Assembly: GCA_934394985.1 (NCBI GenBank)
Contig: CAKRRF010000025.1
Location: 1 to 37,261, forward strand
From: an uncultured Marvinbryantia sp.
Lineage (GTDB): Bacteria; Bacillota; Clostridia; Lachnospirales; Lachnospiraceae
Reading direction: 5' to 3'
Length of the DNA stretch: 37,261 nucleotides
The translations under genes and the position numbers were made by a program. This document shows, in pieces, positions 1,214-37,261 of this stretch. Every line of letters starts with the position of its first letter. The first letter of the stretch is position 1. The notes beneath the pieces are model-generated. The model was not told the origin of the DNA, ran no database searches, and saw only the letters and a program-made list of their open reading frames with translations.

Positions 1214-1227
1214 GAAAGGAGAAAGGA

Positions 1228-2067: not shown

Positions 2068-2080
2068 AGGAGGAAGAACA

Positions 2081-3037: not shown

Positions 3038-3118
3038 TAACATTTGAGCACCTACACTTGAAATATATCACACAACATTCAAAAGCAGGGAGGTGCAGGC
3101 AATGAGAGGTACATAGAT

Positions 3119-3445: not shown

Positions 3446-3457
3446 AAAGGGGCAGCC

Positions 3458-4126
3458 GTGGCAAGACCAGAAAAAAGCGGCATTGATTATTTTCCCCTGG
3501 ACACTGATTTTTTTGATGATAAAGCTATCAAGATCCTCATTTCAAAGTTTGGAAGTGATGGGATAGCGCTATTGATCTATCTATACTGTGATATCTACAA
3601 AAACGGTTATTTCAGAACGGTCGATGAAGACTACTGGGATATCGTCAGTGCAGATACGAAGATCAACCAGAATACAATTGGACAAGTGATGTCATACTTG
3701 CATAGGCGGTCACTGATCGTAGCAATTAAACTTCCTATGTCGGTCAACTGTCTCACCTCCACCGCAATTCAAAGACGGTATATGTTCGCCGTCAAAGAGA
3801 GAGCCAGGAAGGCGAAGCGGTCCATATTGGTCGATCGTAATATATGGATGATACCAGAATCAGAGATACCGGAAATTCGGATCGTAAATGATGATGGACA
3901 TGCATCCCTTATTAAAGTCATCCAATTTTCAGATAGTCCAAGGAAAAATGAAGTTATTCCACGGAAAAACACAGGTAATTCCACGGAAAAATGCCTAAAA
4001 GAAAAGAAAAGTAAAGTAAAGAATAATAATGCAGTAAGCGCCCGTGGGCGCAGTAACAGTTTTAATAATTTCCCGCAGAGAGATTATGACTATGACGAAC
4101 TAGAAAAGCAGCTACTTGACTGCTGA
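3458..4126 (+). CDS. DUF4373 (Lin1244/Lin1753-like) phage replication protein
   Basis: 222 residues from GTG 3458, with GAAAGGGG upstream. The N-terminal half begins GIDYFPLDTDFFDDKAIKIL and continues with an LIYLYCDIYKNGYF segment, a winged-helix module typical of Lin1244/Lin1753-like phage replication proteins. A basic low-complexity linker follows (CLKEKKSKVKNNN). The C-terminal FNNFPQRDYDYDELEKQLL peptide is common to phage initiator and helicase-loader proteins. The likely role is origin recognition or helicase loading, inferred from family and position. No helicase or DnaC-like ATPase is visible nearby. Confidence 0.78.
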   Translation: MARPEKSGIDYFPLDTDFFDDKAIKILISKFGSDGIALLIYLYCDIYKNGYFRTVDEDYWDIVSADTKINQNTIGQVMSYLHRRSLIVAIKLPMSVNCLTSTAIQRRYMFAVKERARKAKRSILVDRNIWMIPESEIPEIRIVNDDGHASLIKVIQFSDSPRKNEVIPRKNTGNSTEKCLKEKKSKVKNNNAVSARGRSNSFNNFPQRDYDYDELEKQLLDC

Positions 4127-4869: not shown

Positions 4870-5058
4870 ATGGAGAAACTAAAACCTTGTCCGTTTTGCG
4901 GAGGAAAGGCAGAAATGTTGATTGATGAATATAGCGTTTCAAGAAAAGAATATCTTGTAGCCTGCACAGAATGCGATGGAATGGTGGAACGCTGGAGAGA
5001 AACAAAGGAAGAAGCGGTAGAGCAGTGGAACAGGAGGACAAGTAATGAGCGAAATTAA
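4870..5058 (+). CDS. Lar-family restriction alleviation-like zinc-ribbon protein
   Basis: 62 residues. The CPFCGGKAE signature at 7-15 and a second knuckle CTEC at 32-35 frame one zinc ribbon, and the C-terminal AVEQWNRR is the usual end of Lar-like proteins. Lar of the Rac prophage moderates type I restriction-modification; most phage members are untested. The ribosome site is AAAGTGAGGATGAG. The 96 bases before it (4774-4869) hold no convincing gene. Confidence 0.75.
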   Translation: MEKLKPCPFCGGKAEMLIDEYSVSRKEYLVACTECDGMVERWRETKEEAVEQWNRRTSNERN

Positions 5059-5608
5059 ATTCAGCGACGGAATGCCAAAAAGAGAAAGACGTCCCAGCAC
5101 AAGAATTTACCCAGAAGAATTGCTGGATAAAAAATGCGGTGGCTGTGTAAGATGTCAGCCGAGAGAAAGAAAGGGCGAGACAGGCTATCGTTGCACGACA
5201 CAGCCTTACAACAAAGACATTTCTCCAGAAGATAAAGCTTGCGTTATTTACCGGGACAGAGAGGAAGAAGAAAAGTACAAGGCGTTAACAGCACAGGACG
5301 AGGAGAACCGCAGAAAAGAACTCTGGAATATCTATTCAAAACGTGAACCAATTAAATTGCCTATCGTAAATGATGGGTACGGAATGATTCCAGAATGCCC
5401 TATATGTGGGGAAATGCCATATAGCACTAAGCAGTGCCATTGGTGCGGTCAGAGATTTATCCAGGACGAAGAAGTGGAAGAATATATAAAACCACTGACT
5501 AAAGAGGTAACTTGCTTTTCATGCGGTAGAAAGGTAACGGCGAACGTGAGCAAGTACAACGGACACATTAGTTATCATTGCCAGTGTGGAACGAATTTTA
5601 TCGAATAA
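5045..5608 (+). CDS. Multi-zinc-ribbon phage protein
   Basis: 187 residues, overlapping the Lar-like gene by 14 bases. There is an N-terminal Cys cluster (C31, C34, C37, C50, C66), then a zinc ribbon C118-x2-C121 / C131-x2-C134 (CPICGEMP, CHWCGQRF) and a second C157-x2-C160 / C179-x-C181 (CFSCGRK, CQCG). A charged helical stretch links them (about 70-100). Function unknown. Two to three metal sites suggest a nucleic-acid or protein adaptor; this is inference only. Confidence 0.68.
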   Translation: MSEIKFSDGMPKRERRPSTRIYPEELLDKKCGGCVRCQPRERKGETGYRCTTQPYNKDISPEDKACVIYRDREEEEKYKALTAQDEENRRKELWNIYSKREPIKLPIVNDGYGMIPECPICGEMPYSTKQCHWCGQRFIQDEEVEEYIKPLTKEVTCFSCGRKVTANVSKYNGHISYHCQCGTNFIE

Positions 5609-6640: not shown

Positions 6641-7261
6641 ATGAGCAACAAATTAAAAAAGAACAGCGCCCAGAAACGAACCAGAAGATATCTGGGTATC
6701 AATCAGAAAGTGATTAACCAGTACAACAAAAAAGAGACAGAAGAGAAAGCAATGCTTGCGGTATCGACCAGTATCTGCTGGATGACTTACCTTACTCTGT
6801 ATGATTTGCTTGGGTTCAAAGAGAAGCGGCTCAGGAAGTTTTACAGTATGGCTATAGACATGAAGGTAAGGTGGCATGATGGAGATGCAGACATCACAAC
6901 AGAATCCATGCAGAACTACTGCATAGCAAAGAAAATCAAATATCAGGACTGGATCCGGAGCATACCAGAAGTACAAAAGCGGGCATTGTGCCCTGTTACT
7001 ATAACAACAAATGAGGGTATCCGATACCTTGATGCGGTTATACTGGCAAATATTCTGCCTATGCTTATCATCTTAAAAGAAGAATTCCGGGTGTCAACGA
7101 AAAAGGTCAATGAGGTACTGGATAAGATCAAGTACCTGATCGGATGCTATTCTGCCAGACAGCCAAGATGCAAGAAACCATATCTGACTGATGACATGAT
7201 CTTGCAAGCGTTCCGGGATGAATTAAAACTGGATCTGGTGACGGGAAAGAAGGTGGCATGA
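6641..7261 (+). CDS. Phage protein of unknown function
   Basis: 206 residues, with AAAGGAAA before the ATG. The N-terminus is basic (KLKKNSAQKRTRRYLG), followed by mostly helical sequence with a hydrophobic segment near 45-58 and the pattern ITTNEGIRYLDAVILANILPMLIILKEEFR. No known domain is recognised; nucleic-acid binding is only suggested by the basic N-terminus. The stop overlaps the next ATG (ATGATG). Confidence 0.62.
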   Translation: MSNKLKKNSAQKRTRRYLGINQKVINQYNKKETEEKAMLAVSTSICWMTYLTLYDLLGFKEKRLRKFYSMAIDMKVRWHDGDADITTESMQNYCIAKKIKYQDWIRSIPEVQKRALCPVTITTNEGIRYLDAVILANILPMLIILKEEFRVSTKKVNEVLDKIKYLIGCYSARQPRCKKPYLTDDMILQAFRDELKLDLVTGKKVA

Positions 7262-7485
7262 TGGAAAAAAGGTTAAATCAGGATTCTTACGAAAAAGGAT
7301 ATCAGGATGGATATTCGAATGGATATAGTGATGGAAATTTTTTTACAAAAGCTCATATACTTGAAAAATTTTCTATGGATTTTAAAGAAAAATTTATGGT
7401 TTTTGGTTTTACAGAAGAAATAAACGAAAGAGATTTTGATGAATTCATTGAAAAAATGAAAACAGAAATTGATGAAAGTGAGTGA
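7258..7485 (+). CDS. Small phage protein with Gly/Tyr/Asp repeats
   Basis: 75 residues (74 if the second ATG is used). It contains a short internal repeat YEKGYQDGYSNGYSDG at about 12-27, a G-Y-x-D-G pattern common in phage small proteins, then an Asp/Phe-rich acidic helix. Overlap with the previous stop (ATGATGG) suggests coupled translation. Base composition is more AT-rich than its neighbours. Function unknown. Confidence 0.58.
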   Translation: MMEKRLNQDSYEKGYQDGYSNGYSDGNFFTKAHILEKFSMDFKEKFMVFGFTEEINERDFDEFIEKMKTEIDESE

Positions 7486-7489
7486 TGAT

Positions 7490-7795
7490 ATGAATAAGAT
7501 AAACGCAATAAAAACACTCAAACATCATTATGCGTGGCTAAAGCAGAGCTGGAAACCATATCCAGATCAGAAAGTGCTAGACGCTATAGGGACTGCTGTC
7601 AGTGCACTTGAAAAACAAATACCGAAGAAGCCAACATATGATGGATATGTATCTGTATCAGGCGGAACATTTGTGCGGGATGAGTGGATATGTCCGAATT
7701 GCGGTAGCCGGTATGAACTGGAATATGGTGACTATGAATATTGCCCTAACTGCGGACAGACAATAGATTGGAGCGCTGAAAATGAAACTGAATGA
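7490..7795 (+). CDS. Zinc-ribbon phage protein
   Basis: 101 residues from ATG 7490 (alternatives TTG 7469, ATG 7472 and GTG 7478 lie within the previous gene). Helical N-terminal half (INAIKTLKHHYAWLKQSW), then a classic zinc ribbon C68-x2-C71 / C85-x2-C88 (CPNCG twice) and a short tail. This helix-plus-ribbon design is frequent in phages of gut Bacillota. Function unknown. Confidence 0.66.
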   Translation: MNKINAIKTLKHHYAWLKQSWKPYPDQKVLDAIGTAVSALEKQIPKKPTYDGYVSVSGGTFVRDEWICPNCGSRYELEYGDYEYCPNCGQTIDWSAENETE

Positions 7796-7991
7796 AAAGC
7801 AACAGAAACTAAAATACAAGATGGTTGAGGTTGCGATGCTCTTGTCTGACCTGTCGGAAGAACAGAACGGCATTTATACCTGCGTGGATGCAGAAACAGA
7901 AATACCAGAAAAAGGAAAAAAGCTGGTCATGCATTTTGATTTCGATATAGTGGAGAGTGATAATGTGGCCGAGAAAACAGAAGAAAAGTGA
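7782..7991 (+). CDS. Small acidic phage protein
   Basis: 69 residues, overlapping the previous gene by 14 bases. An N-terminal helix (EKQQKLKYKMVEVAMLLSDLSEEQ) is followed by a beta-like stretch GKKLVMHFDFDIVES. No family recognised. The overlap on both sides argues for a real gene in a packed operon. Confidence 0.52.
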   Translation: MKLNEKQQKLKYKMVEVAMLLSDLSEEQNGIYTCVDAETEIPEKGKKLVMHFDFDIVESDNVAEKTEEK

Positions 7992-8124
7992 AGATGCAAT
8001 AGCAAGGATTAAAAACACGGATCCTGCTATCAAACATCCAGATAGCAAGGCATTGGAATGGATGAGGCGAAAACCTTATGAGGTGGAGAAAAAGAATGAG
8101 GACAAGGAAGAAAAAACTCAGTGA
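7963..8124 (+). CDS. Very small charged protein
   Basis: 53 residues (MWPRKQKKSEDAIARIKNTD...EEKTQ), in frame from ATG 7963 to TGA 8122. It overlaps the genes on both sides by 29 bases, and TGGAGAGTGA upstream is a fair ribosome site. Composition is dominated by Lys, Glu and Arg. It fills an otherwise empty 104-base gap; alternatively it is spurious. Confidence 0.4.
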   Translation: MWPRKQKKSEDAIARIKNTDPAIKHPDSKALEWMRRKPYEVEKKNEDKEEKTQ

Positions 8125-8395
8125 TTATGGCGTGTTTCCAGAAGATGAGAAGAAAATTCTTACCATGTGCCGCATGGCGGATAAACAGGAACGGCAGGAG
8201 CTGATGCAGATATGTATCGCTTCTGCCCCGTGCGGCATCGAAGTGTACCTGTATTGGTCCATGACTCTCAATATGAGTTACGATGAGATCAACAAGAAAG
8301 AGTACATAGCAGCCACCAGGGACGATTTCTACGGATACCGGCGGAAAGCTATGGCGAAGTTCTACGACTGGCTGAGGCTGACACGGCGGATATAG
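8096..8395 (+). CDS. Small basic phage protein, possible late-gene regulator
   Basis: 99 residues from ATG 8096, with AGGTGGAG 8 bases upstream; ATG 8078 has no ribosome site. The pattern LSDYGV...DDFYGYRRKAMAKFYDWL resembles a family of about 100-residue proteins that sit just before the terminase in Bacillota phages. Position between early and packaging genes suggests regulation of late transcription; this is inference. No canonical HTH can be read with confidence. Confidence 0.6.
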   Translation: MRTRKKKLSDYGVFPEDEKKILTMCRMADKQERQELMQICIASAPCGIEVYLYWSMTLNMSYDEINKKEYIAATRDDFYGYRRKAMAKFYDWLRLTRRI

Positions 8396-8440
8396 TGCAG
8401 AGACACGGAAAAGTGATGAGAACTATAATTGAGGTAGAAC

Positions 8441-8716
8441 ATGAACCTGAATTTAAAAATGAGAAAGCTGCAGCAGGCGATTTTGCTGAAAACCGGATTG
8501 CCGGTAAAGATCAGTCAGAGACAGTTCTATAGCCAGGAACAGAATCGGATGATAACGATGTACTCTCTTAGCGTATCTACACTGCAGCATACCAAAAAAG
8601 GACAGAAAGAAAGGGACTATGAGATTATTAGTACGGCATCCCAGATAGAAGCGTTACTGTGTTTAAAAGATATCTGGGAGCAGATGCAAGGATGGGAACA
8701 TGATACTGACACCTAA
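8441..8716 (+). CDS. Small phage protein of unknown function
   Basis: 91 residues, preceded by TTGAGGTAG. Basic N-terminus (NLKMRKLQQAILLKTGLPVKI), beta-rich middle, acidic helical end. It overlaps the terminase gene by 17 bases. Not recognised. Confidence 0.55.
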   Translation: MNLNLKMRKLQQAILLKTGLPVKISQRQFYSQEQNRMITMYSLSVSTLQHTKKGQKERDYEIISTASQIEALLCLKDIWEQMQGWEHDTDT

Positions 8717-10322
8717 GCAGAAAGCTTTTGCAGATGAATACATACGGAATAGTGGGAATGCGACACAGGCGGCGATTGCGGCCGGGTACAGTGCAAAAAG
8801 TGCGAGATATATAGCTGCTCAGAACTTATCAAAACTCAACATAGCTGCCTATATTGCAGAGCGGCAAAAAGAAATCGAATCATCTCGTATCTGCGATCTG
8901 AAAGAGATACAGGAGTTCAGGAGCCGTGTGATGCGTGGTGAAGAGAAAGATTCGTTTGGTCTGGAGATCGGAGCAGGAGACCGCCTGAAGGCCGCAAACG
9001 ATCTGGAAAAGGCGCTGACCATCAAACAACAGTTTGAGGAGAAGCAAAAGGCAGAAGAACGTGCCAGACAATGCGGTATATATCACATAGATCTGGATGT
9101 GATCGCTGATGTATTCCATCCAATGATCCGAGACATCAGGAGTGGGCGGCATTCAGAGTACATATTACCTGGAGGACGAGGATCTACCAAGTCCTCTGGG
9201 ATTTCCTGCATTGTACCAGAACTGATGAAGAATAACCCAAATATCCATGCGCTGGTACTGCGTAAGGTCGGGAATACCATTAAGGACTCTGTATACGCAC
9301 AGATGAAATGGGGAATAGACAAACTCAATCTGAATGAGGAATTTACCTGCAAGGTATCCCCAATGGAGATTACATATAAGGCAACCGGACAGAAGATTTA
9401 TTTTCGTGGTGCGGATGATCCATTAAAGATCAAATCAATCAAACCAGAATTTGGTTATATCGGGATTGTCTGGTTTGAAGAATTGGATCAGTTTGCAGGA
9501 CCGGAAGAGATCCGAAACATCCAGCAGTCCGCATTACGAGGCGGTGATATCGCCTACAAATTCAAATCATTCAATCCACCGAGAAGCAAGAATAACTGGG
9601 CGAACGAATACACGGCAGAAGCAGAACAGAAAGACGAAAAAGCTCTTGTATGCCGTAGTACATACAAGGATGTACCGGAAGAATGGCTGGGAGAAATCTT
9701 TCTGAATGATGCAGAGCATCTGAAAGAAACCAATCCAGATGCCTATGATAATGAATACATGGGTGTAGCTAACGGCAATGGTGGCAATGTCTTTGAATTC
9801 ATCGAGGAGCGAACTATCACAGATGAAGAGATCAGCCACATGGATCGCATATACCAAGGCACAGACTGGGGATGGTATCCAGATCAATATGCATTTGTGC
9901 GGCTGTATTATGATGCAGATAAAGAGACAATATACTTCATAGACGAGATATACGAGAATAAGAAATCAAATGAATGGACAGCAGGAGAAATCAAACGGCG
10001 AGGATATGATGATTATGAGATCACTTGTGATTCTGCAGAACCAAAATCTGTAACAGACTACAGAGACTATGGTTTGGCTGCCAGAGGAGCTATTAAGGGC
10101 CCTGGTAGCATTGAATACTCAATGAAATGGTGGCAGAAGCGGAAACTGGTTATGGATCCAGCGAGAACACCAAACGTCTGTAAAGAATTCAAAGGCTATG
10201 AATATGAGCGGGACAAGGATGGGAATATCATTACCGGTTATCCAGATCACGATAACCATCTGATAGATGCAAGCCGGTACGCTACAGAGCCATTGTGGAG
10301 AAGAAGAGGAAACAGCGCATAA
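8700..10322 (+). CDS. Fused terminase: small-subunit DNA-binding domain plus large-subunit ATPase/nuclease
   Basis: 540 residues. Residues 1-125 match the terminase small subunit: LTPKQKAFADEYIRNSGNATQAAIAAGYS HTH, then a helical oligomerisation region. From about residue 126 the sequence is a PBSX-type large terminase: Walker A GGRGSTKSS (158-166), Walker B IVWFEE (256-261), coupling motif near SFNPP (290-294), and an RNase H-like nuclease with acidic residues D389 (GTDWG), D444 (CDSAEP) and D523 (HLIDASRY). The enzyme cuts and pumps phage DNA into the procapsid through the portal encoded next (TAATG overlap). Most phages encode TerS and TerL as separate genes; no separate terS exists here. 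The Walker A has Thr where Gly is commonest. Confidence 0.92.
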   Translation: MILTPKQKAFADEYIRNSGNATQAAIAAGYSAKSARYIAAQNLSKLNIAAYIAERQKEIESSRICDLKEIQEFRSRVMRGEEKDSFGLEIGAGDRLKAANDLEKALTIKQQFEEKQKAEERARQCGIYHIDLDVIADVFHPMIRDIRSGRHSEYILPGGRGSTKSSGISCIVPELMKNNPNIHALVLRKVGNTIKDSVYAQMKWGIDKLNLNEEFTCKVSPMEITYKATGQKIYFRGADDPLKIKSIKPEFGYIGIVWFEELDQFAGPEEIRNIQQSALRGGDIAYKFKSFNPPRSKNNWANEYTAEAEQKDEKALVCRSTYKDVPEEWLGEIFLNDAEHLKETNPDAYDNEYMGVANGNGGNVFEFIEERTITDEEISHMDRIYQGTDWGWYPDQYAFVRLYYDADKETIYFIDEIYENKKSNEWTAGEIKRRGYDDYEITCDSAEPKSVTDYRDYGLAARGAIKGPGSIEYSMKWWQKRKLVMDPARTPNVCKEFKGYEYERDKDGNIITGYPDHDNHLIDASRYATEPLWRRRGNSA

Positions 10323-11773
10323 TGGGAATCATATCAGCAATTAAAAGGTGGATAGGGATGTTTTTTAAGAATCAGGCAGAGAAAGACTTTCAGACGGATA
10401 TAATTGAATCACCCGTGATGGAAGCGATGATACAGAATTGTGCGAGCATATATGCAGGAAGACCGAGCTGGATAAGCTCAGGCGATAGAATCAAGACTAT
10501 CAATTTTGCAAAGTCTGTGTGCTCCGAAACAGCCAGACTTGCGACACTGGCTATCGGAATACAGATCGATGGATCTGTGAGAGCTACATGGTTCCAGGAG
10601 CAGATTGATAAGATATATTTTCAAATTCGCCACTGGGTAGAATATGGATGCGCTTATGGCACTGTGTTTATCAAGCCGAACGGGACTGGATTTGATATGT
10701 TTACGCCGCTCGATGTGGCACTGACTGATTGCGATAATCAGGAAATCAGAGGAATTATCTTTAAGGACCAGTATGCAGATGGGGATAAATACTACACACG
10801 GCTTGAATATCACAGGTTTGTGGATAGCGAGGTTGATGGAATTAAGGTATCCCCGTACTACATCAGTAACCGAACATATGTATCATCTACACCAGATAGC
10901 ATTGGAAAACAGATTGCTATGAGTAAAACGAAGTGGGCTGGATTAATGGAAGACACGCCACCAATTCTGAAAGGGAATAATGAGAGCCTTGACGGTCCGA
11001 TGTTTGGCGTGTTTCGGACGCCACAGGCAAATAATCTTGATTTGAATACCGTTCTGGGGCTTCCAATCTTTGCAGAAGCTATCGAAGAACTGAAAGATCT
11101 TGATATAGCATACAGCCGCAATTCTGGGGAGATATTTGATTCTGAAAAGATCATCTTGGCAGATGACAGACTTCTGATCCCAGACGGCACACCAATCAAG
11201 AACAGGAATACAAAATATAATGAGAATCGAAAAAAAGAAATGAAGCTTCCTCATTATGTGAAAAATGTATTCGGGCAGGAAGACAAGGAATTCTATCAGG
11301 AGATCAACCCACAGCTTAACACAGATATCAGAATTACTGGCATAAATGCTCTTTTAAGCCAGTTAGGTTACAAGATCGGATTTTCCAATGGCTATTTCGT
11401 ATTCAATGAATCTAGTGGCATTCAGACGGCTACAGGAGTGGAAGCGGAACAGCAGAGAACGATTCAGTTCATCAAAGATGTGAGAGACAAGTTGGAATCC
11501 TGCCTTGACGGAGCCATCTACGCAATGAACGTGTACGCTGATCTATATGGACTTGCACCGGTTGGAACCTACGAAGTCAATTATGATTTTGGTGACATCA
11601 CATATTCTTATGAAAATGATAAGCAGACGTGGTGGAGCTATGTGAATACAGGCAGAGTACCGTTCTGGTATTATCTCGTTAAATTCGAGGGATTCTCAGA
11701 AGAGGATGCAAAGGCTCTTGCAGACGAAGCACAGCAGCAACAGCAAGATAGCGGTCTGTTCGGTGATGAATGA
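10322..11773 (+). CDS. Portal protein (SPP1 Gp6-like)
   Basis: 483 residues from ATG 10322, which overlaps the terminase stop by one base. The family pattern is seen in ARLATLAIGIQIDG near 73-86, WVEYGCAYGTVFIKPN near 105-120, ITGINALLSQLGYKIGFSNGYF near 340-365, and a Gln/Asp-rich C-terminal tail (EAQQQQQDSG). The portal dodecamer sits at one capsid vertex, docks the terminase and is the DNA channel. Downstream minor capsid genes overlap by ATGATG, so translation is coupled. Confidence 0.88.
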   Translation: MGIISAIKRWIGMFFKNQAEKDFQTDIIESPVMEAMIQNCASIYAGRPSWISSGDRIKTINFAKSVCSETARLATLAIGIQIDGSVRATWFQEQIDKIYFQIRHWVEYGCAYGTVFIKPNGTGFDMFTPLDVALTDCDNQEIRGIIFKDQYADGDKYYTRLEYHRFVDSEVDGIKVSPYYISNRTYVSSTPDSIGKQIAMSKTKWAGLMEDTPPILKGNNESLDGPMFGVFRTPQANNLDLNTVLGLPIFAEAIEELKDLDIAYSRNSGEIFDSEKIILADDRLLIPDGTPIKNRNTKYNENRKKEMKLPHYVKNVFGQEDKEFYQEINPQLNTDIRITGINALLSQLGYKIGFSNGYFVFNESSGIQTATGVEAEQQRTIQFIKDVRDKLESCLDGAIYAMNVYADLYGLAPVGTYEVNYDFGDITYSYENDKQTWWSYVNTGRVPFWYYLVKFEGFSEEDAKALADEAQQQQQDSGLFGDE

Positions 11774-12198
11774 TGAAAAAAGATATAGTTGGCAGTGTAC
11801 ACATAGAACTGAATCTGGATCGCATAACCGGAAATCTGGATAAAGCACAGATGGCACTAAATCAGCAGATCGTAGCAGACAGCACACCATACATCCCATT
11901 TCAGCAGGGAGCGTTAAGATCACAGGTCAGATACCCGGATGGAATGACAGGCGGAACTATAGAATGGTATGCGCCATACGCCCATTATCAGTACATGGGA
12001 GAGGTATATGGCCCGAACATCCCAAAGAAGGATGCAGATGGCAATATAATAGGCTGGTGGTCACCACCGGTAAAATATCCAACAGGGCGAAAGTTACAAT
12101 ACCATGAGCCAGGGACCGGCGCAAAATGGTTTGAGCTGGCAAAAGCTGAACATTTGCCAGAATGGAAAGAGTTGGTAAAAAGAAAGTTGGTGGAATGA
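11770..12198 (+). CDS. Minor capsid protein (Minor_capsid_2-like)
   Basis: 142 residues (141 from the second ATG). The motif DSTPYIPFQQGALRSQVRYPD at about 38-58, followed by WYAPYAHYQYMGEVYGPNIP and GTGAKWFELAKAEH, is typical of the Minor_capsid_2 family of Bacillota siphoviruses, probably head-tail joining. It is placed here before the major capsid rather than after it. It overlaps its neighbours by 4 bases on both sides. Confidence 0.8.
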   Translation: MMKKDIVGSVHIELNLDRITGNLDKAQMALNQQIVADSTPYIPFQQGALRSQVRYPDGMTGGTIEWYAPYAHYQYMGEVYGPNIPKKDADGNIIGWWSPPVKYPTGRKLQYHEPGTGAKWFELAKAEHLPEWKELVKRKLVE

Positions 12199-13466
12199 TG
12201 CTGGAACCGGATTACTTTTTGGGGAAAGAAGACCGTCTGATAGAGATCTTCCGGAAGTTAGAGGATGATATACTGCACGATATCACAAGACGTCTGGTAA
12301 ATGCCGGTGAGCTAACAGCTACAGCAGATCGGTTATTATACCGGCTACAGCAGATGGGAGAGAGCCGGGAATACATAGAACAGAAGTTGGCTGAGTATAT
12401 GGATATGAGTCGGGCAGAACTCAGGAAGATATTGCAGAACGCTGTTCTGGCATCGTGGGCGAGTGACGAAGAGACTTTGAAGCAGATGGGCCTTGTGGTA
12501 TCGCCGCCACTGAAAAACCCACTTGTGATCCAGATTATGGATGCTGAGTACCGGAAGACACTTGGTGAACTGTCCAACCTCACCAGAACCACAATGGACC
12601 AAGCACAGAAAGATCTTATCAACCTGATGGACGAAGCAGAGATGAGAGTGGCAGCAGGAGCGGAAAGTTACACGCAGGCAACAGCAGATGTGTTAGATCG
12701 GTACGCTGGTCGTGGCGTGATGGTCACGTATCCGACCGGCACAAAGCGAACATTGGAAGCTGCTGTGCGGTGCTGTGTGGTCACATCCATGAATCAGACA
12801 GCCGCACAGGTGACAAACCAGTATATTGTGGAAACAAAAAGTGAATATGTATTGATCTCTGCTCATACCGGAGCCAGGCCACAGAAAGAGGGACAACCGT
12901 ACTGTGCTGGTCACGAAAACTGGCAAGGAAAAGTATACCGGATACGTGGATCAGAACCGGGCTATCCAAATCTGTTGGAATCCACAGGATACAACATTGA
13001 TCCAGTTACCGGACAAGGGAAAGTGGTGAATCCTCTCGGACTGCACGGCTATAACTGCAGGCATAGCCACCAAATGTGGGATAAGGATCTGCGGAATCCA
13101 TATCTGGATGAAAATGGCAATCTGAAGATCAGCACAGAGGAGAACCAGAAGAAATATGATCTGATGCAGGAGCAACGAAAAATGGAGCGGTCGATCAGGG
13201 CAACCAAGCGCAGGCTCCTGACGATGCAAACAGAACTAAATATGTTGTCGGATGGAACACCGGAAAAAGCAGACATACAGAACAAATACGATGTGCTAGC
13301 ATATAAACTGACACGGCAGAACAAAGCGTACAACGATTTTTGCGATCGGAACAATATGGCTCCACAATATGAGCGAAACAAGGTGGCTGGTTACGGATAC
13401 GATCAGGAACGGCGAAGCAAATCCGGTGCAAAACGATATAAGCAGAAAGCGGTATATAACTCATGA
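12195..13466 (+). CDS. Phage minor capsid protein (Minor_capsid_1 / Mu F-like relative)
   Basis: 423 residues from ATG 12195 (ATG 12198 is equally possible; an in-frame ATG at 12162 lies in the previous gene). The N-terminus LEPDYFLGKEDRLIEIFRKL is typical of Minor_capsid_1. The C-terminal half carries GLHGYNCRHSH (near 284-294), the conserved CRH core shared with Mu F-type head morphogenesis proteins, followed by a coiled-coil region. It is thought to sit inside the capsid near the portal. Confidence 0.85.
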   Translation: MMLEPDYFLGKEDRLIEIFRKLEDDILHDITRRLVNAGELTATADRLLYRLQQMGESREYIEQKLAEYMDMSRAELRKILQNAVLASWASDEETLKQMGLVVSPPLKNPLVIQIMDAEYRKTLGELSNLTRTTMDQAQKDLINLMDEAEMRVAAGAESYTQATADVLDRYAGRGVMVTYPTGTKRTLEAAVRCCVVTSMNQTAAQVTNQYIVETKSEYVLISAHTGARPQKEGQPYCAGHENWQGKVYRIRGSEPGYPNLLESTGYNIDPVTGQGKVVNPLGLHGYNCRHSHQMWDKDLRNPYLDENGNLKISTEENQKKYDLMQEQRKMERSIRATKRRLLTMQTELNMLSDGTPEKADIQNKYDVLAYKLTRQNKAYNDFCDRNNMAPQYERNKVAGYGYDQERRSKSGAKRYKQKAVYNS

Positions 13467-14981: not shown

Positions 14982-15003
14982 AAAAGTGGGGATTACTCCC
15001 CAC
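14979..15003 (-). terminator. Terminator of the antisense HNH gene
   Basis: GTGGGGA (14986-14992) and TCCCCAC (14997-15003) form a 7-bp stem with a 4-base loop. Read on the minus strand it is followed by TTTTTTATTTC, a U-tract, so it is oriented to stop the HNH transcript. The HNH stop codon lies in the hairpin. Confidence 0.75.
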
Positions 15004-15637
15004 AATATGAATCTTTTCTATGAAATTTTGGAACATTTATCGCTTGTTCAAAAGTAAAACCATTTACAGACATTCGTTTTTCAATAAAATCATAGTCAAG
15101 ATTTAATTCTCTGCACCAGTCAGCTAAAATTTGGGTTTTACCCTTGTAAGTAATAAAACGGTTATTTCTTTTATTTTTGGATTGCTCATTAAAAGGAATC
15201 CATTTGCAATTATTTGGACAATAATCTTTATTATAGTCAATGCGCTCAATAGTAAGAGAATCATTATAACCATTTGCATAAGCCCAATTCATAAAAGAAA
15301 CAAAGTCATTGTTCCAGTCAGCACACAAATGAATACCTTTTGCACCATAATATCTATATTCTTGTGAAGACGGATTATTACAACGACGTTTCATATTACA
15401 CCAAGTATTGTAAAGCCTTGTATGCCGCATACCATGTGTTTTATTTCTACTTTCAAATTTGAAACATCCGCACGACTTAGTATGCCCGGATAATAAATCC
15501 GTAGATTGGACAATAGTTTCGTTTCCGCAATCACATTTGCATAACCATGTAGCACGTCCACGTTTTGTACTTCCTGAACGATTGATAACAGTAAGTTTGC
15601 CAAAACGTTGATTTGATAAATCTTTAAGTTTGGACAT
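14993..15637 (-). CDS. HNH homing-endonuclease-like protein (free-standing mobile gene)
   Basis: 214 residues from ATG at 15637 (minus), with AGGTG 8 bases upstream; the longer open frame includes leader RNA and is rejected. N-terminal module RFGKLTVINRSG...WLCKCDCGNE...SCGC (residues about 11-59) with Cys knuckles. The central region contains LTIERIDYNKDYCPNNCKWIPFNEQSKNKRNNR (129-160), the E-R-x-D/N-C-x-W/N-x-R pattern of HNH-type phage homing enzymes. The C-terminal 50 residues (ITYKGKTQILADWCRELNL...) look like a DNA-recognition repeat. It is the only antisense gene of the head region and has its own promoter, structured leader and terminator, as expected for an invasive element inserted in a virion operon. 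Cleavage activity is inferred. Confidence 0.78.
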   Translation of the reverse strand: MSKLKDLSNQRFGKLTVINRSGSTKRGRATWLCKCDCGNETIVQSTDLLSGHTKSCGCFKFESRNKTHGMRHTRLYNTWCNMKRRCNNPSSQEYRYYGAKGIHLCADWNNDFVSFMNWAYANGYNDSLTIERIDYNKDYCPNNCKWIPFNEQSKNKRNNRFITYKGKTQILADWCRELNLDYDFIEKRMSVNGFTFEQAINVPKFHRKDSYCGE

Positions 15638-15664
15638 AAAAATAACACCTTGCCTTTCTGATGT

Positions 15665-15733
15665 ACGCCTTAAATGGAATGTGGGAAAATCACTAAGGCA
15701 TGTGACTTTCGGGTCGCGAATCCCTATTCCCAC
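15665..15733 (-). promoter_or_regulatory. Structured, pseudoknotted leader RNA of the HNH gene
   Basis: On the minus strand the predicted transcript begins GUGGGAAUAGGG. P1: GUGGGAA (15733-15727) with UUCCCAC (15687-15681). P2: GGG (15724-15722) with CCC (15713-15711), followed by a GAAA joint. P3: GUCAC (15706-15702) with GUGAU (15693-15689). The P3 loop AUGCCUUA (15701-15694) is complementary over 8 bases, one G-U, to UAAGGCGU (15672-15665) just outside P1, giving a pseudoknot. The ribosome site begins about 15 bases after the pseudoknot. I do not recognise it as a named riboswitch or ribozyme. Confidence 0.6.
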
Positions 15734-31673: not shown

Positions 31674-32573
31674 ATGGCAGTTAAATCGGTACAAGCCATC
31701 GTAAATGGCCAAACAATCAATCTGACGCTTAATAACTCGACAGGAAAATATGAAGCCACAATTACTGCTCCGAGCACATCGAGTTATAATCAGCCTGGAC
31801 ACTATTATGGGATTACATTGAAAGCAACAGACGATGCCGGTAATGTGACCACCGTGGACGTAACAGATGCCACACTGGGAGAAGCATTGAAGCTGATTGT
31901 TAAGGAAAAGGTTGCACCTGTGATATCAATCACAAATCCAACATCTCAGGCAACACTGAAGAACAATCAGCCAACAATCGAATGGAAAGTGATGGATGCT
32001 GATTCCGGGGTTAATCCAGATACAATCAGCCTTACGATTGATTCTGGAAGTAAGATCACAGGATCCTCTATCAAGAAGACGGCTGTATCTGGTGGATATG
32101 CTTGCAGCTATACACCAACAGCGGCTCTAACGGATGGATCCCATACCATCAGGTGTGATGCATCCGACTACGATGGTAATGCGGCGAGTCAGGTGAGCGT
32201 AACATTTAAGGTTGATACTACACCTCCTACGCTGAGTATTACTTCTCCAGCTGAAGGATATGTCACAAATAAAAATACTATCACTGTATCCGGTGTGACA
32301 AACGACATTACTTCATCCCCAGTAACGGTAACAATTAATGGAGAAGCTACCACAGTTGCGGTCGATGGAAAATTTAGTAAGGATGTTACGTTAAAAACTG
32401 TTGGCAATAATAGCATTACTATAATTGCCAAAGACAGCGCAGGCCAGACAACCACAATTACAAGAATTGTTAGATATGACCCGAATCCGCCTAAGATCAC
32501 AGGAGCGGAAGCAACGCCAAATCCAGTTGATACAGGTAAGACATATGTACTGTCCGTGACAGTCACAGATTGA
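31674..32573 (+). CDS. Ig-like repeat tail appendage protein
   Basis: 299 residues. Three Ig-like (Big_3/Ig-fold) modules: 1-80 (VKSVQAIVNGQTINLTL...), 85-175 (APVISITNPTSQATLKNNQPTIEWKVMDADSG) and 177-265 (TPPTLSITSPAEGYVTNKNTITVSG). A short C-terminal strand pair TPNPVDTGKTYVLSVTVTD follows. Such domains decorate phage tails and bind weakly to surface sugars. The last element is repeated at the start of the protein encoded at 33314. Overlaps the next ATG by one base. Confidence 0.78.
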   Translation: MAVKSVQAIVNGQTINLTLNNSTGKYEATITAPSTSSYNQPGHYYGITLKATDDAGNVTTVDVTDATLGEALKLIVKEKVAPVISITNPTSQATLKNNQPTIEWKVMDADSGVNPDTISLTIDSGSKITGSSIKKTAVSGGYACSYTPTAALTDGSHTIRCDASDYDGNAASQVSVTFKVDTTPPTLSITSPAEGYVTNKNTITVSGVTNDITSSPVTVTINGEATTVAVDGKFSKDVTLKTVGNNSITIIAKDSAGQTTTITRIVRYDPNPPKITGAEATPNPVDTGKTYVLSVTVTD

Positions 32574-33000: not shown

Positions 33001-33309
33001 ATGGCAATCAGATATGTCGAGAAAACTGAAATGGATCTCGGTGAAAAAATCAGATTCAAAAGCAATGTGAAACCTGTATGTGATGCAGACATCCCCTTTA
33101 CAATCGCATCAGCCGAGTACGAATTACTTTATATTGGCGAAGACGATGGGGATGGAACAGTAGAAGACTCAGGACAGTGCAATATCAATGCGCATGTGTT
33201 AGATGCCTTAATTGAGCCGAAAAAAGCCGGTATCTATTGTTTACGATATACCTATCATATTGCAGAAGAGATCTGGGTGGACAACTTCCAAATCAAAGTA
33301 AAGGGGTGA
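33001..33309 (+). CDS. Small beta-sandwich tail protein
   Basis: 102 residues, with GAAAGGGGG about 10 bases upstream. Strand pattern (MDLGEKIRFKSNVKPVCDADIPFTIASAEYELLYIGEDD, GIYCLRYTYHIAEEIWVDNFQIKVKG) is that of an Ig-like or baseplate-attachment domain. It probably belongs to the same appendage as its neighbours. Confidence 0.68.
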   Translation: MAIRYVEKTEMDLGEKIRFKSNVKPVCDADIPFTIASAEYELLYIGEDDGDGTVEDSGQCNINAHVLDALIEPKKAGIYCLRYTYHIAEEIWVDNFQIKVKG

Positions 33310-33313
33310 TTTT

Positions 33314-33496
33314 ATGGCAGAAGCAAATATACGTATTACTGATGCCAGGATTACCCCTAATCCTGTAAATACAGGTGGAAAATATGTGATATCGGTTAGT
33401 GTAGTAAATAAAGCAATAGTGTTGGCAGCAAATACATCCGGTGCATTACTTTCTGGATCCAATATCACAGCTTTAAAAGTAAAGGAGAATAAGTGA
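33314..33496 (+). CDS. Short tail protein sharing the TPNPV...Y..SV element
   Basis: 60 residues, with AAAGGGG upstream. ITDARITPNPVNTGGKYVISVSVV (about 8-31) mirrors the C-terminal GAEATPNPVDTGKTYVLSVTV of the 299-residue Ig protein, so the two share a domain. The remainder is a short apolar strand. The stop overlaps the fibre start by one base. Possibly an assembly link between appendage and fibre. Confidence 0.62.
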   Translation: MAEANIRITDARITPNPVNTGGKYVISVSVVNKAIVLAANTSGALLSGSNITALKVKENK

Positions 33497-34038
33497 TGGC
33501 AGATAGCTTTATAAGTAAATTAATCACAGAACTTACAGCAAAGACAACGGCGGCAGACACCGATCTGGTGCCAATTGCAGATTCCAATGGCAATTTTTTT
33601 AAGATGACATGGCAGAAAATGAAGCAGCTTTTGCTTGGTACAAAAGATATTTCTGGTGTAGGTGATGGAACAGTCACCGGAGCAATAAGTGAGTTAAACA
33701 CGAAGTTGATATTTGACGCTTCTGCATTACATCTATATTCCATTTGGCAAGTGCAATATTTTGAATGTTTTAAAGTTAATGGGATTGTAACAATTAATGC
33801 GGCATTGTTTTGTAACGGACAAATTAATGCAAATACTAATTACACAATGAACTCCGAACCGATAGATTCATCACTAATGACATTAAATGAAGTAAGAATT
33901 ATAGGTAATGCTTGCGATTCAAATTACGGCAATACGGTTTGTGCGAATATACATTTTGAGAATGGTTATTTAAAAATCAATATTCCAAATTCTGATTGCC
34001 GGTATATTGCTTTTAGTGTCACATATCACTCGCTATGA
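33496..34038 (+). CDS. Receptor-binding tail fibre, expressed form (constant N-terminus plus cassette C1)
   Basis: 180 residues from ATG 33496, with AAAGGAG upstream. Residues 1-71 are the constant attachment part (MADSFISKLITELTAKTTAADTDLVPIADSNGNF...GTVTGAISELNTKL), a pattern seen at the start of Bacillota fibre proteins. Residues 72-180 are the variable, beta-rich tip C1, ending CRYIAFSVTYHSL. The switch point is the codons for TKL, which contain the recombination-site core CACGAAGTTG. Three further tips (C2, C3, C4) follow without starts or ribosome sites. Swapping tips should change host-surface specificity. Confidence 0.82.
   Translation: MADSFISKLITELTAKTTAADTDLVPIADSNGNFFKMTWQKMKQLLLGTKDISGVGDGTVTGAISELNTKLIFDASALHLYSIWQVQYFECFKVNGIVTINAALFCNGQINANTNYTMNSEPIDSSLMTLNEVRIIGNACDSNYGNTVCANIHFENGYLKINIPNSDCRYIAFSVTYHSL
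33691..33708 (+). repeat. Recombination site S1 at the fibre constant/variable junction
   Basis: GAGTTAAACACGAAGTTG, coding for ELNTKL. The right arm CACGAAGTTG is identical to both arms of the palindrome at 34342-34368. The 7 bases before it (AGTTAAA) would be the crossover spacer; the left arm is degenerate. Confidence 0.75.
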
Positions 34039-34344
34039 TCATACAGGATAACATATTGTCGCATCGATCCTTTCTACACTAGTGTACGATGGGTAATAAA
34101 AGCACAGTGCGTTGTCACTTTTCCTCAAATATGACGTGTAATTATGACCGCCAGCAGTCCCAAGAGAAAATGTCAACATCGAAGAAATTTTTGATGCTGG
34201 TAATGTCCAGCATATAGGAGTGTCATGTGAGATCTCATGCGGCGTAACCTCGATATGTATAAAACATATTCCATTTTTGATTATATAACTTGCTTCTCCC
34301 TGAGATCCTTGAATGGTTAAGTTTCTTTCTTCAGTACTTGTCAA
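34039..34344 (-). pseudogene. Silent fibre tip cassette C2 (inverted)
   Basis: Open minus-strand frame whose first codon is the TTG (L of TKL) of the site, then 100 codons (TSTEERNLTIQGSQGEASYII...IDATICYPV) to TGA. It has no ribosome site or true start. Joined through the site it continues the constant part in frame as ...TKL-TSTEERN. It converges tail-to-tail with C1; the two stops meet in TATGATCATA (34034-34043). Beta-rich, fibre-tip-like. Not decayed: an intact alternative coding cassette rather than a dead gene. Confidence 0.78.
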
Positions 34345-34368
34345 CTTCGTGTATGATACACGAAGTTG
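34342..34368. repeat. 27-bp perfect palindrome: shared recombination site for C2 and C3
   Basis: Two 13-base arms, each ACACGAAGTTG-type (left CAACTTCGTGTAT, right its exact complement), surround a single central G at 34355. Seen as a tyrosine-recombinase site it is two 10-base arms CAACTTCGTG/CACGAAGTTG around the 7-base spacer TATGATA. Each half leads into a cassette: minus into C2, plus into C3. The arms resemble the loxP arm AACTTCGTATA. Confidence 0.88.
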
Positions 34369-34680
34369 CTCCTAAAAAACATATCAATCGGGAAAATTGT
34401 AGATTTTGTGCAAACACCTAAAGCCTTGTTGGAATCGATAGGCGGAACCTTATCTAAAGATGGATCTGTGTTAGTTGATTTTTCGTGCTTTTCTGCTGAT
34501 AACTCAAATAAGACGACGAATTCTCCATTTACAGGCGTTTATCCAGAGTGGTATAACATTATCACGTTTGGCTATCCTTCCAGATGTAGTCAGATCGCAA
34601 TAAGCTGTTATCAGGATAAGTGGTCTATATGGATTCGCTATCAGCATGATGATATTATAAGTGGTTGGAATCAATTATAG
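34366..34680 (+). pseudogene. Silent fibre tip cassette C3
   Basis: Begins at the TTG of the palindrome and reads 103 codons (LLKNISIGKIVDFVQTPKALLESIGGTLSKDG...DDIISGWNQL) to TAG. No ribosome site is present, so it is expressed only if joined to the constant part at the TKL codons. The content is beta-rich with a Trp/Tyr-rich end like the other tips. An intact alternative cassette. Confidence 0.76.
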
Positions 34681-34697
34681 CAATGTAAATACGTCTA

Positions 34698-34925
34698 TTA
34701 TATTTTACCTTCAATGTATGTAATATCAACTTGAAGTGTCGTATTTTTTAAGTAAGTGCTATTGAAACCCCATACAGAGAATCCATTTATTCTTCCAAAT
34801 GTGAACCCCGTATATGATGTGACACCTCCAGCAGCTATTACTATAACATCTTTTGCAAAATTTATTGTAAAAGATCCGTCACTGTTTGTTGTTACTGTAT
34901 ACATTTGAGACTTGATATTTTTCAT
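34698..34925 (-). pseudogene. Silent fibre tip cassette C4 (inverted)
   Basis: Minus-strand frame whose ATG sits in the site (CACGAATATG). It has 74 codons after it (KNIKSQMYTVTTNSDGSFTINFAKDV...LQVDITYIEGKI). Joined to the constant part it would give ...N-T-N-M-KNIKSQ or TKL-type hybrids. Shorter than the other tips. Converges with C3 across a 17-base gap. No ribosome site on the minus strand. Confidence 0.74.
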
Positions 34926-34939
34926 ATTCGTGTTTAGTT
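34923..34939 (-). repeat. Recombination site S4 of cassette C4
   Basis: Minus-strand AACTAAACACGAATATG. The spacer-like AACTAAA matches the S1 spacer AGTTAAA at five of seven bases, and CACGAA is shared with all sites, but the outer arm is TATG instead of GTTG. The terminator stem begins at the very next base. Confidence 0.6.
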
Positions 34940-34972
34940 AAAAAACAGATACAAAAAGTGTATCTGTTTTTT
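34940..34972. terminator. Strong bidirectional terminator between shufflon and recombinase
   Basis: A perfect 14-bp stem, AAAAAACAGATACA (34940-34953) with TGTATCTGTTTTTT (34959-34972), and a 5-base loop, ending in a T-run on either strand. It isolates the recombinase gene from the tail transcript. Confidence 0.88.
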
Positions 34973-35002
34973 CTGTGTTATTGTATTTATATCAATACAC
35001 AG
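34973..35002. promoter_or_regulatory. Inverted repeat in front of the recombinase
   Basis: CTGTGTTATTG (34973-34983) and CAATACACAG (34993-35002) pair with one extra T, around TATTTATAT. It ends at the recombinase ribosome site GAAAGGTGG. It could be a repressor operator or an RNA hairpin controlling translation. No convincing -35/-10 pair is seen here. Confidence 0.55.
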
Positions 35003-35016
35003 AAAGGTGGTACAAC

Positions 35017-36009
35017 ATGGATAACAGAGAAAAAATCGTAAGAAATGTGGCAATGGCACTGAGCACCGAAATGGATACAGAACTGATCCGGATGGTGCAG
35101 GACGTACTTGTAATGGAATTAAATGAATACGAAGTACAGGAAAGATGTACTGATATTGCCAGGGTGGAGACAGGCGGAGAAAAAATGATGCAGCGTTATG
35201 TGGCAACAAAAAGAATCGAGGGGTTGTCAGAGAATACAATAAGAAGGTACATAGATGTAAATATGAAACTTTTGAATTTTCTCGGAAAACCTATTAACGA
35301 AATAACAACCTATGATGTCAGGTTTTATTTATCATACAAAAAAGAAAAAGATAAGGTGAAGAAGTCGACATTGGATGGCATGAGACGATGTTTTAATGCG
35401 TTCTACAGTTGGCTTGCGGCAGAGAATCTAATTGATAGAAACCCGTGCCAGGCGTTGGCGCAAATCAAATGCAAAAACGAGATAAGAAAGCCATTTTCAG
35501 CTATCGAACTTGAAAAATTAAAAAGTGCATGTAAAACAAAAAGAAACCTTGCACTGGTGGAATTTCTATATTCTACCGGTTGCAGGGTTTCTGAGGTTTC
35601 TGCGCTTAATAGATCGGATATTAATTTTGAGGAATTAGAAATTAAGGTGCTGGGAAAAGGAGATAAAGAGCGGATCGTCTACCTTACGCCGGTAGCAGCT
35701 ATGAGACTACAAGAATATCTGGATACCAGAGTAGATAATGATCCGTGTCTGTTTTATAGTCGGGCAAAAAGAAGATTTGGGAAAAATGGGATAGAAGCAA
35801 TAATTAAAAAGATAGGCACTGATGCAGGGGTTGAAAAGGCTCATCCGCACAGGTTTCGCCGGACACTTGCGACAAATCTTCTTGATCGTGGAATGGACAT
35901 ACAAGATGTAGCAGCAATACTTGGTCATGCCGACCTTAAAACAACAAAAATATATTGTTATACATCGCAGAGTAAGGTTAAGAGAGAGTACCGAAAATAC
36001 TCGCTATAA
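35017..36009 (+). CDS. Tyrosine recombinase, proposed fibre-cassette invertase
   Basis: 330 residues from ATG 35017, with GAAAGGTGG 6 bases upstream; an in-frame GTG at 34975 lacks a ribosome site. SAM-like core-binding domain at about 55-150 (MMQRYVATKRIEGLSENTIRRYID...). Catalytic domain with R190 (STGCRVSE), Lys in GKGDKER (213-219), H278-x-x-R281 (HPHRFRR), H304 (ILGHAD) and nucleophile Y313 (KIYCY). All active-site residues are present. An extra N-terminal helix region of about 50 residues precedes the core-binding domain. XerD-like. Its placement directly after the four tip cassettes, not beside a repressor or attP, points to site-specific inversion rather than integration, although an integrase role cannot be excluded. 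Confidence 0.88.
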   Translation: MDNREKIVRNVAMALSTEMDTELIRMVQDVLVMELNEYEVQERCTDIARVETGGEKMMQRYVATKRIEGLSENTIRRYIDVNMKLLNFLGKPINEITTYDVRFYLSYKKEKDKVKKSTLDGMRRCFNAFYSWLAAENLIDRNPCQALAQIKCKNEIRKPFSAIELEKLKSACKTKRNLALVEFLYSTGCRVSEVSALNRSDINFEELEIKVLGKGDKERIVYLTPVAAMRLQEYLDTRVDNDPCLFYSRAKRRFGKNGIEAIIKKIGTDAGVEKAHPHRFRRTLATNLLDRGMDIQDVAAILGHADLKTTKIYCYTSQSKVKREYRKYSL

Positions 36010-36015
36010 TGTGCT

Positions 36016-36045
36016 TTGTACAATAAATGCATATAAAGCTATGAT
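36016..36045 (+). promoter_or_regulatory. Possible promoter for the endolysin
   Basis: TTGTAC (36016-36021) and TATGAT (36040-36045) with an 18-base spacer, 29 bases before the amidase start. ATGAT and ATCAT also form a small inverted repeat around the -10. Confidence 0.45.
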
Positions 36046-36073
36046 TTTTGTATCATTTGATAGGAGGTGCAAA

Positions 36074-37261
36074 ATGTATAGCATAATTAATAAAGTATCA
36101 TCTTCAAGAGTACCTGCTTGGGGGAATACTCATAATTTTATTGCAATCCATTACTTGGGATGCGTAGGAGAGAATTATGAGCTGGCGCCAGATGGTACGG
36201 GAGCTCATTTCACGATCTTTTATGATGGATCAATTTATCAGCGGTGCTCTTATGATGCAGTACCATGGGCTGTGGGAACTGCAGGTTATTACAAACAGAA
36301 ACATCCAAAAGCAAATAACTATAGCACAATTTCCATTGAGTTATGTGTGAAAAAAGCCAATAATAAAGGCTCTGGAAATCTGGCAGAAGATAAAGATTGG
36401 TATTTTACAGAAGAGACTCAGAATGCAGCAGTATGGCTCGTCCAGAAACTTATGAAAGACTTGAATATTCCAATTGAAAATGTCCTTCGCCACTATGATA
36501 TCGTAAATAAATGGTGTCCGGCCCCATATTGCTGCAATAATAAATACAAAACATCATGGACGTGGGATGAATTTAAGGCAAAAGTAGCTGGTAAGCCTGT
36601 TGATTCTTCTGAAACACCAGAATCAGATGGTTACTACAGAGTAAGAAAGACATGGAAAGATACTAAATCTCAACTTGGCGCATATATTGTGCTGGACAAT
36701 GCAAAAAACAATTGCCCGGCTGGCTATACCGTGTATGATTGCCATGGTAAAGCACTCTACACCAATGCGGAAAAGGAAACAACCTATTCAGGAGAAACGG
36801 ATAAAATCTGGATGGGATGGACGAAGAGAGAAACTGGTTTGGAAGGACTTCGATGCATTCATGGCGATAACGGGAATGCTTATGGATTGCAGTTTGATTA
36901 TCGCTATGGACTGATTCCATTCCTGAAATATTGTGTAGAGTACAATGCAGAGAGATATGCCGGATTTAAGCCGTATATTGTTCTTGGAGCTGGTAACAGC
37001 AAATTGATCTACAATCAGGGACTTGGTAAGCTATGGCAGACACTGTACGACAGCTATACTGCTGAGTTTGAACAGCTGCAGTACACCTGTGCGTACCAGC
37101 AGTATTATCTGCCAGCAAAGGAATATTGCCTGAAGAACTATGGACTTGATATGGACAAGTGCCATCCAGCAGTCAAGGGAACACTGTGGTCTATGTCGTT
37201 CCGTTCTGGCGCGCAGACTGGTGCACAGAAGTTCGCAGGATGCGCCGGAAAGAGCGATGAA
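36074..37261 (+). CDS. Endolysin: N-acetylmuramoyl-L-alanine amidase with extra C-terminal domains, 3' truncated
   Basis: Open from ATG 36074 (TAGGAGGTGC upstream) to the window end, 396 codons so far. Residues 1-170 are a zinc amidase of the PGRP/Amidase_2 type with ligands H26 (IAIHYLG), H140 (LRHYD) and C148 (KWCPAPY) and E89 (SIEL); it cleaves the amide between muramic acid and L-Ala. After a linker, residues about 187-230 (YYRVRKTWKDTKSQLGAYIVLDNAKNNCPAGYTVYDCHGKALY) look like a small binding module often joined to such amidases. From about 262 onward a further domain (GDNGNAYGLQFDYRYGLIPFL) is reminiscent of phage lysozyme-like hydrolases, which I cannot confirm. Confidence 0.85.
   Translation, partial: MYSIINKVSSSRVPAWGNTHNFIAIHYLGCVGENYELAPDGTGAHFTIFYDGSIYQRCSYDAVPWAVGTAGYYKQKHPKANNYSTISIELCVKKANNKGSGNLAEDKDWYFTEETQNAAVWLVQKLMKDLNIPIENVLRHYDIVNKWCPAPYCCNNKYKTSWTWDEFKAKVAGKPVDSSETPESDGYYRVRKTWKDTKSQLGAYIVLDNAKNNCPAGYTVYDCHGKALYTNAEKETTYSGETDKIWMGWTKRETGLEGLRCIHGDNGNAYGLQFDYRYGLIPFLKYCVEYNAERYAGFKPYIVLGAGNSKLIYNQGLGKLWQTLYDSYTAEFEQLQYTCAYQQYYLPAKEYCLKNYGLDMDKCHPAVKGTLWSMSFRSGAQTGAQKFAGCAGKSDE

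Follow-up and report, generated by a model that had tools for sequence, protein, structure and literature searches.

A probable receptor-binding-protein shufflon beside a tyrosine recombinase in a tailed phage from an uncultured Marvinbryantia assembly

Introduction

The R64 PilV shufflon serves a plasmid pilus adhesin, and its recombinase, Rci, is a tyrosine recombinase that uses 19-bp sfx sites. Tyrosine recombinases are also linked to hsdS inversion in phase-variable type I systems. Here we describe an array of one tail-protein stem and four alternative tips beside a tyrosine recombinase gene, found on contig CAKRRF010000025.1 of an uncultured Marvinbryantia sp. (Lachnospiraceae, a family of abundant gut bacteria); the window is the whole 37,261-nucleotide stretch that was analysed. 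We consider the array to be a phage receptor-binding-protein (RBP) shufflon with a probability of about 0.92.

Tyrosine-recombinase RBP shufflons of phages have been published as Rin systems, in Bifidobacterium prophages (PMC6109161) and in Eggerthella lenta clade 1 prophages (PMC8778435). In the literature covered, these two actinobacterial prophage groups were the ones described. Gin, Cin and Min likewise switch part of a phage tail fibre by inversion, but with a serine recombinase where the window has a tyrosine recombinase (PMC6109161), and inversions at prophage tail fibres were reported from Proteobacteria (PMC5903667). A literature search on phage inversion in Lachnospiraceae and Clostridia, with most subscription papers and all bioRxiv preprints outside its scope, returned no report recognisable as the family described here.

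Results

The array consisted, in order, of the stem with tip C1 (+), C2 (-), C3 (+), C4 (-), a hairpin with a T run, and the tyrosine recombinase gene. Its features were as follows.

33496..33708, plus strand: constant stem of the putative tail-tip protein, 71 codons, ending ELNTKL; recurs with changing tips in homologues
33496-34038, plus strand: stem and C1 as a single 180-aa frame, its ATG preceded by AAGGAG
33695..33708, plus strand, core at 33698: site S1 (TAAACACGAAGTTG), the expression junction, by site comparison
33709..34038, plus strand: tip C1, occupying the expressed position; its type recurs on MADSF and MTGIG stems and, without a stem, in P0127 and P0129
34039..34344, minus strand: silent tip C2, 101 aa, tail to tail with C1; fused to a stem in P0147, P0174, P0195 and P0198
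34342..34354, minus strand, core at 34352: site S2, left palindrome half, by site comparison
34356..34368, plus strand, core at 34358: site S3, right palindrome half, by site comparison
34366..34680, plus strand: silent tip C3, 104 aa; fused in P0170, P0201 and P0204
34698..34925, minus strand: silent tip C4, 75 aa; fused in P0148
34923..34936, minus strand, core at 34933: site S4, by site comparison
34940..34972, no strand: terminator-like hairpin at the boundary of array and recombinase gene, from a hairpin search
35017..36009, plus strand: tyrosine recombinase P0003, 330 aa, likely invertase, with six catalytic positions and relatives tied to tip arrays

The first-pass annotation of the window had described one stem with four tips in alternating orientation (+,-,+,-), followed by a terminator and an intact tyrosine recombinase, and this layout was confirmed with all frames intact. 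The lengths of the three silent tips, given as 100, 103 and 74 codons, were each one short. The tips formed two tail-to-tail pairs, C1/C2 with abutting stop codons and C3/C4 with ends 17 nt apart. The four tips were mutually dissimilar, with 15 to 27 identical residues per pair, or 19-35% of gap-free columns in global alignments. The hairpin may insulate the recombinase gene; the region contained three terminator-like hairpins, where shuffled sequence averaged 1.9.

Each tip began at the core ACACGAA[G/T][T/A]TG in the codon phase of the stem, which at all four sites read AAC/TAC-ACG-AAG/AAT. The annotated agreement of core and phase was thus seen at every site. The C4 junction reads TNM and not TKL as annotated. 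S2 and S3 stood back to back as a perfect 27-bp palindrome (34342-34368) with 13-nt arms and a 1-nt centre. The core occurred four times in the whole 37-kb window, always in the array. In 2000 dinucleotide shuffles of 33001-36100 it occurred 0.011 times on average and at most once, a control that flatters the result because the motif was derived from the four sites themselves. Stronger evidence than this shuffle control comes from the common phase, from the frames being open and from the homologues.

With a tyrosine recombinase and invertible segments that each hold two opposed C-terminal frames, the array resembles R64. It differs from R64 in its phage tail context and in a short site of another design, where R64 has the plasmid pilus adhesin PilV and the 19-bp sfx. 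The parallel to R64 drawn in the first-pass annotation thus holds for the geometry of convergent two-tip segments; among phage RBP shufflons with a tyrosine recombinase, Rin was published earlier (PMC6109161, PMC8778435). Like Rin, the window has a constant RBP N-terminus with several dissimilar C-termini (95-100 residues in Bifidobacterium; PMC6109161), the variable C-termini here being silent and the RBP identity resting on position and relatives. Both have short asymmetric sites and an adjacent tyrosine recombinase (XerD-like, with no arm domain, in Bifidobacterium), and Rin too belongs to prophages of gut bacteria. In the window a short asymmetric repeat starts every variable part, in both orientations, and occurs nowhere else.

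The Rin sites are TTCCCTAACCC or ttccgtat, unlike TAAACACGRR / TAAACACGAA here (PMC6109161, PMC8778435); because the two published Rin sites also differ from each other, we do not view the site sequence as a defining feature of the Rin type. The full-length Rin gene has two directly oriented sites, whereas the window has tail-to-tail two-tip segments and a back-to-back palindrome. The host group here is mostly Lachnospiraceae, and the core encodes a hinge common to many stems. The locus is a Rin-like phage shufflon with R64-like geometry, and it is likened to Rin by its parts and logic rather than by recombinase homology.

A rival reading takes C2, C3 and C4 as independent genes; the first-pass annotation had seen no start or ribosome site in any of them. 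We found no properly spaced ribosome site before any of the three. C2 does have an AGGAG, which the annotation missed and which is the point in favour of separate genes, but it lies 24 nt upstream of the TTG; a GTG at good spacing opens a frame that stops after 6 codons. In the frame of the sites every silent tip had an upstream stop at most 7 codons away: immediately upstream of the site for C3 and C4, and 6 codons upstream for C2, with no start codon in between. Homologues of C2, C3 and C4 each occur as the C-terminal part of stem proteins, and we regard independent genes as very unlikely.

These homologues came from a search of the stem-plus-C1 protein against about 5.8 billion proteins, which gave 77 homologues among 116 candidates, 70 through the stem with many different tips and 7 through the C1 tip. 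With 5 proteins from a search of the C3 region and the window's own protein, the set comprised 83 proteins. The junction fell at residue 70 in 40/40 long MADSF stems (the window's included) and 9/9 MADNY stems, and at residue 53 in 21/21 short MADSF stems. These 70 junctions read LNTK in 46 and LNTN in 24 cases, and the smaller stem groups likewise ended in LNT (MTGIG 3, MAYEK 2, MASFE 1). When the 83 proteins and the three silent tips of the window were clustered at 40% identity over 60% of the shorter tip, they formed 39 tip clusters on at least 5 stem types, distributed over MADSF-long, MADSF-short, MADNY, MTGIG and MAYEK stems.

For all four tip types of the window, other sequences contained an in-frame fusion to a stem at LNT[K/N], the predicted junction. 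Fused relatives of C1 included P0124 and proteins with MTGIG stems, and the four C2 relatives were 81-88% identical. Frames that are silent in the window thus have stem-joined counterparts in other sequences, at the very junction an inversion would create. A nearly identical stemless leader ending CVKSPINT preceded C1 in P0127 and C3 in P0202 and P0203, as would be expected of a silent position whose tip changes. Since the homologues were drawn from many assemblies, they document exchange over time and not within one clone.

The recombinase carried a Phage_integrase (tyrosine) domain (1.5e-35) and was XerA/XerD-like. Residues R190, K214, H278, R281, H304 and Y313 were present and invariant in 16/16 aligned sequences; we take them to be the catalytic set on the basis of XerD and of the XerA alignment. 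The enzyme could instead be a phage integrase, with the repeats arising by chance or being attP-like. Integrase PHROGs match it, its gene adjoins the lysis genes, and no second integrase was found among the window open reading frames (ORFs) searched, a set that did not cover all ORFs of a window ending inside the amidase gene. Against this, the domain search returned a SAM-like and a catalytic domain only, with no arm-binding domain and no Pfam match in the N-terminal 57 residues. Paired sites around tip cassettes also recur beside the recombinase family in many loci, and more distant relatives adjoin inverted hsdS-like cassettes, as described below. A role as integrase is highly improbable.

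Recombinase relatives at 49-64% identity were found on 5 viral contigs and at 21 genome loci. Most of the 21 genome records were titled Lachnospiraceae or a genus thereof; the titles of L023 ('bacterium') and L029 ('Clostridiales') were not of this kind. A search of 397 genomes from the family of G001 gave 5 with E <= 1e-100, the centre genome among them. Each locus was scored for sites A[A/C/T]ACAC[G/C][G/A] in the same LNT phase bracketing convergent open tips of at least 50 codons. Convergent tip pairs at such sites were present in 20/27 close recombinase loci, window included. L003 and L017 are identical, which leaves 19/26 distinct loci, or 18/25 without the window. The same test gave 0/42 for distant tyrosine recombinase loci, a control of unmatched base composition into which 42 of the 58 loci L033-L090 entered, 16 having been dropped by hand, mostly because they were short or had the match near a contig end.

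The triplet after AACAC was identical within a locus in 97/132 pairs, compared with a shuffle mean of 27.9 and a maximum of 48 in 5000 shuffles. This test used 25 loci (without L003, the copy of L017, and L029) and 88 sites, some of them chance matches, for example before CAT or CAG. The agreement fits a requirement for identity between partner sites over the stretch that is exchanged. In L005 and L012, the genes that bear the site had PHROG tail-fibre or minor-tail matches, and the end of the L017 stem and the window stem have GTxDISGxxDGTxTGAxSxLNT in common.

Two human faecal phage-labelled contigs, L116 (4206-7111) and L120 (406-3447), carried more distant recombinase relatives (37% and 32%) beside inverted Methylase_S (hsdS-like) cassettes. 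As in the window, a related recombinase accompanies inverted sites inside a coding hinge; unlike the window, the target matches Methylase_S and the site is TAAATGATAATTTA, some such sites having no open frame behind them. With relatives beside hsdS-like cassettes, the enzyme group appears to take part in inversions of several kinds within coding sequence.

Other loci of the family showed further arrangements. L020 (Acetatifactor muris) had six sites in three convergent pairs at 6959-12253, and a second recombinase copy with internal stops (G008:C38:17281-18223). L032 held an exact 642-bp duplication (7358-7999 and 9128-9769) of a site with its tip, by a shortened recombinase match. In L024, duplicated stretches 96.7% identical (2375-2858 and 5023-5498) flanked the recombinase on both sides.

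Mutual comparison of 49 loci gave stretches of mixed orientation at 80% identity or more in two pairs, L017/L151 and L015/L027. In Eubacterium sp. 14-2, the 767-bp segment 9119-9885 of L017 was also present on scaffold L151, 100% identical and in the opposite orientation to its flanks. The flanks matched at 100% over 34 and 95 bp, each including 14 bp common with the segment, and the crossover was confined to these 14 bp, which contain the core TAAACACGGAT. L151, another scaffold of this assembly (4351 bases), is an assembly product that contains N from 713 to 3483; the simplest reading of the pair is a culture that carried both orientations. In L151, a tip that occupies the other position in L017 (616 bp, 99.8%) also continues in frame from a stem flank, which is 96.6% like that of L017. 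This second case is weaker, as the stem flank may derive from another prophage copy. The exact inversion between such sites in one bacterial assembly, with the tie between the recombinase family and tip arrays, supports the reading of the window as an invertible array.

Alternatively, the array may be static and degenerate, its silent tips left by past recombination between phages, no longer inverting and with a recombinase that has some other role. A single arrangement was observed for the window's phage, and cassettes do move between prophages. In Parablautia sp. Marseille-Q6255, L015 and L028 have a 682-bp segment in common (99.85%), inverted and ending at sites, while the outer flanks are unrelated, which shows that a cassette was exchanged between prophages and not simply inverted. 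The segment lies directly behind the stem in L015; in L028, following its frame upstream leads only into the recombinase gene in antisense, and the segment looks silent there. A static array is nevertheless unlikely: the four tip frames and the recombinase of the window are intact, its sites agree in sequence and phase, and the Eubacterium relative has both orientations in one genome assembly.

The pair L015 (9691-12743) and L027 (4248-7301), from one genome, had the same flank on opposite sides of the recombinase block, 89% identical over 3 kb and broken at a site. From our reading of the ORFs, the flank is the lysis region. We set this pair aside as proof of inversion; the recombinase genes were 75% alike in their best stretch.

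The window itself is a tailed-phage genome, with terminase, portal, major head protein, tape measure, long tail protein, an Ig-domain protein and, cut by the right end of the window, an amidase. The array sits in the tail module, with the tape measure, tail protein and amidase around it, and together with the recombinase it lies between the tail genes and the lysis genes. Its carrier is a bacterial virus, probably of gut origin. Between the long tail protein and the stem, 31674-32573 encodes a protein with Ig-like and Glucodextran_B domains, which may be another component for adhesion. An HNH endonuclease gene (14993-15733, minus strand) stands amid plus-strand head genes.

Receptor binding by the tips would be in keeping with their position in the last tail gene before the recombinase and lysis genes, with tip diversity on a constant stem, with the tail-fibre matches of relatives and, weakly, with a structure model of C2. 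AlphaFold gave a pLDDT of 49.0 and a pTM of 0.26 for stem plus C1, and 59.5 and 0.45 for C2. The top 16 of the 622 matches of the C2 model to the PDB were lactococcal phage receptor-binding or baseplate chains, four of the match rows being 4v96, which we take to be the TP901-1 baseplate. These matches had E-values of 0.06-0.26, none under 0.001, and are suggestive only.

Discussion

In the mechanism that we propose, the stem gene would be expressed with whichever tip is in frame behind S1. The adjacent recombinase presumably acts on S1-S4, exchanging strands between inverted sites in a short asymmetric core (about TAAACACGAA, encoding the hinge LNT[K/N]). Recombination of S1 with S2 would swap C1 and C2, that of S3 with S4 would swap C3 and C4, and that of S1 with S4 would turn both segments. 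With these four sites there are 8 arrangements and 4 possible proteins, each tip being expressed in 2; C2 and C4 are one inversion away from the arrangement in the window and C3 is two. We infer that the window's phage inverts today. The tips would act as C-terminal receptor-binding heads that decide host recognition, so that a population would carry mixed adsorption specificities and switch host range.

Several observations weigh against this reading. The core common to the sites is only 10-12 bp, and S2 and S3 have ATACACGAA where S1 and S4 have AAACACGAA. S1/S3 and S2/S4 are direct repeats, between which recombination would delete tips, and the proposed mechanism offers no explanation of how this is avoided. 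Convergent pairs under the definition used were lacking in 7/27 close loci (L013, L018, L021, L023, L029, L030 and L031); L013, L018, L021 and L023 still have sites, but masked, spaced or placed otherwise, L018 contains N, and L029 is a 3.3-kb contig. The stem was not found in IMG/VR viral contigs (14 pattern stretches) or GTDB genome contigs (320), INPHARED gave no relative by blastn or tblastn, and none of the IMG/VR, GTDB genome or INPHARED searches returned a close DNA relative of the window's phage. The window stem and tips matched no Pfam family above cut-off and no PHROG of known function, so the tail-tip label depends on where the gene lies and on its relatives. In L005 and L012 the Pfam tail-fibre matches fell short of the curated cut-off, the L017 stem gene matched no tail family, and the structure models of the tips were poor. 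The missing family matches for the window stem and tips, with the sub-threshold Pfam matches of the relatives, slightly lowered our confidence in the shufflon.

The site may have a wider role, as a shared plug encoding the common hinge LNT, by which tips would pass from one stem to an unrelated one through the recombinase or through homologous recombination. We put this forward tentatively and with more doubt than conviction. The spread of tip clusters across stem types is compatible with it, as is the finding that two different prophage loci in a single genome carry almost the same tip pair.

What is new here is a distinct shufflon family, with its own site and many Lachnospiraceae loci; the type of switch itself was known. 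In Eubacterium sp. 14-2 the family has a named strain whose assembly already shows both orientations. The family also supplies a large set of natural candidates for receptor-binding heads, their boundary being defined, and the shufflon could explain, in a way open to testing, why some members of a host population may escape binding by a phage stock that is clonal. If the sites do act as a shared plug, the receptor-binding heads of Lachnospiraceae phages would come from a mobile pool that these phages have in common.

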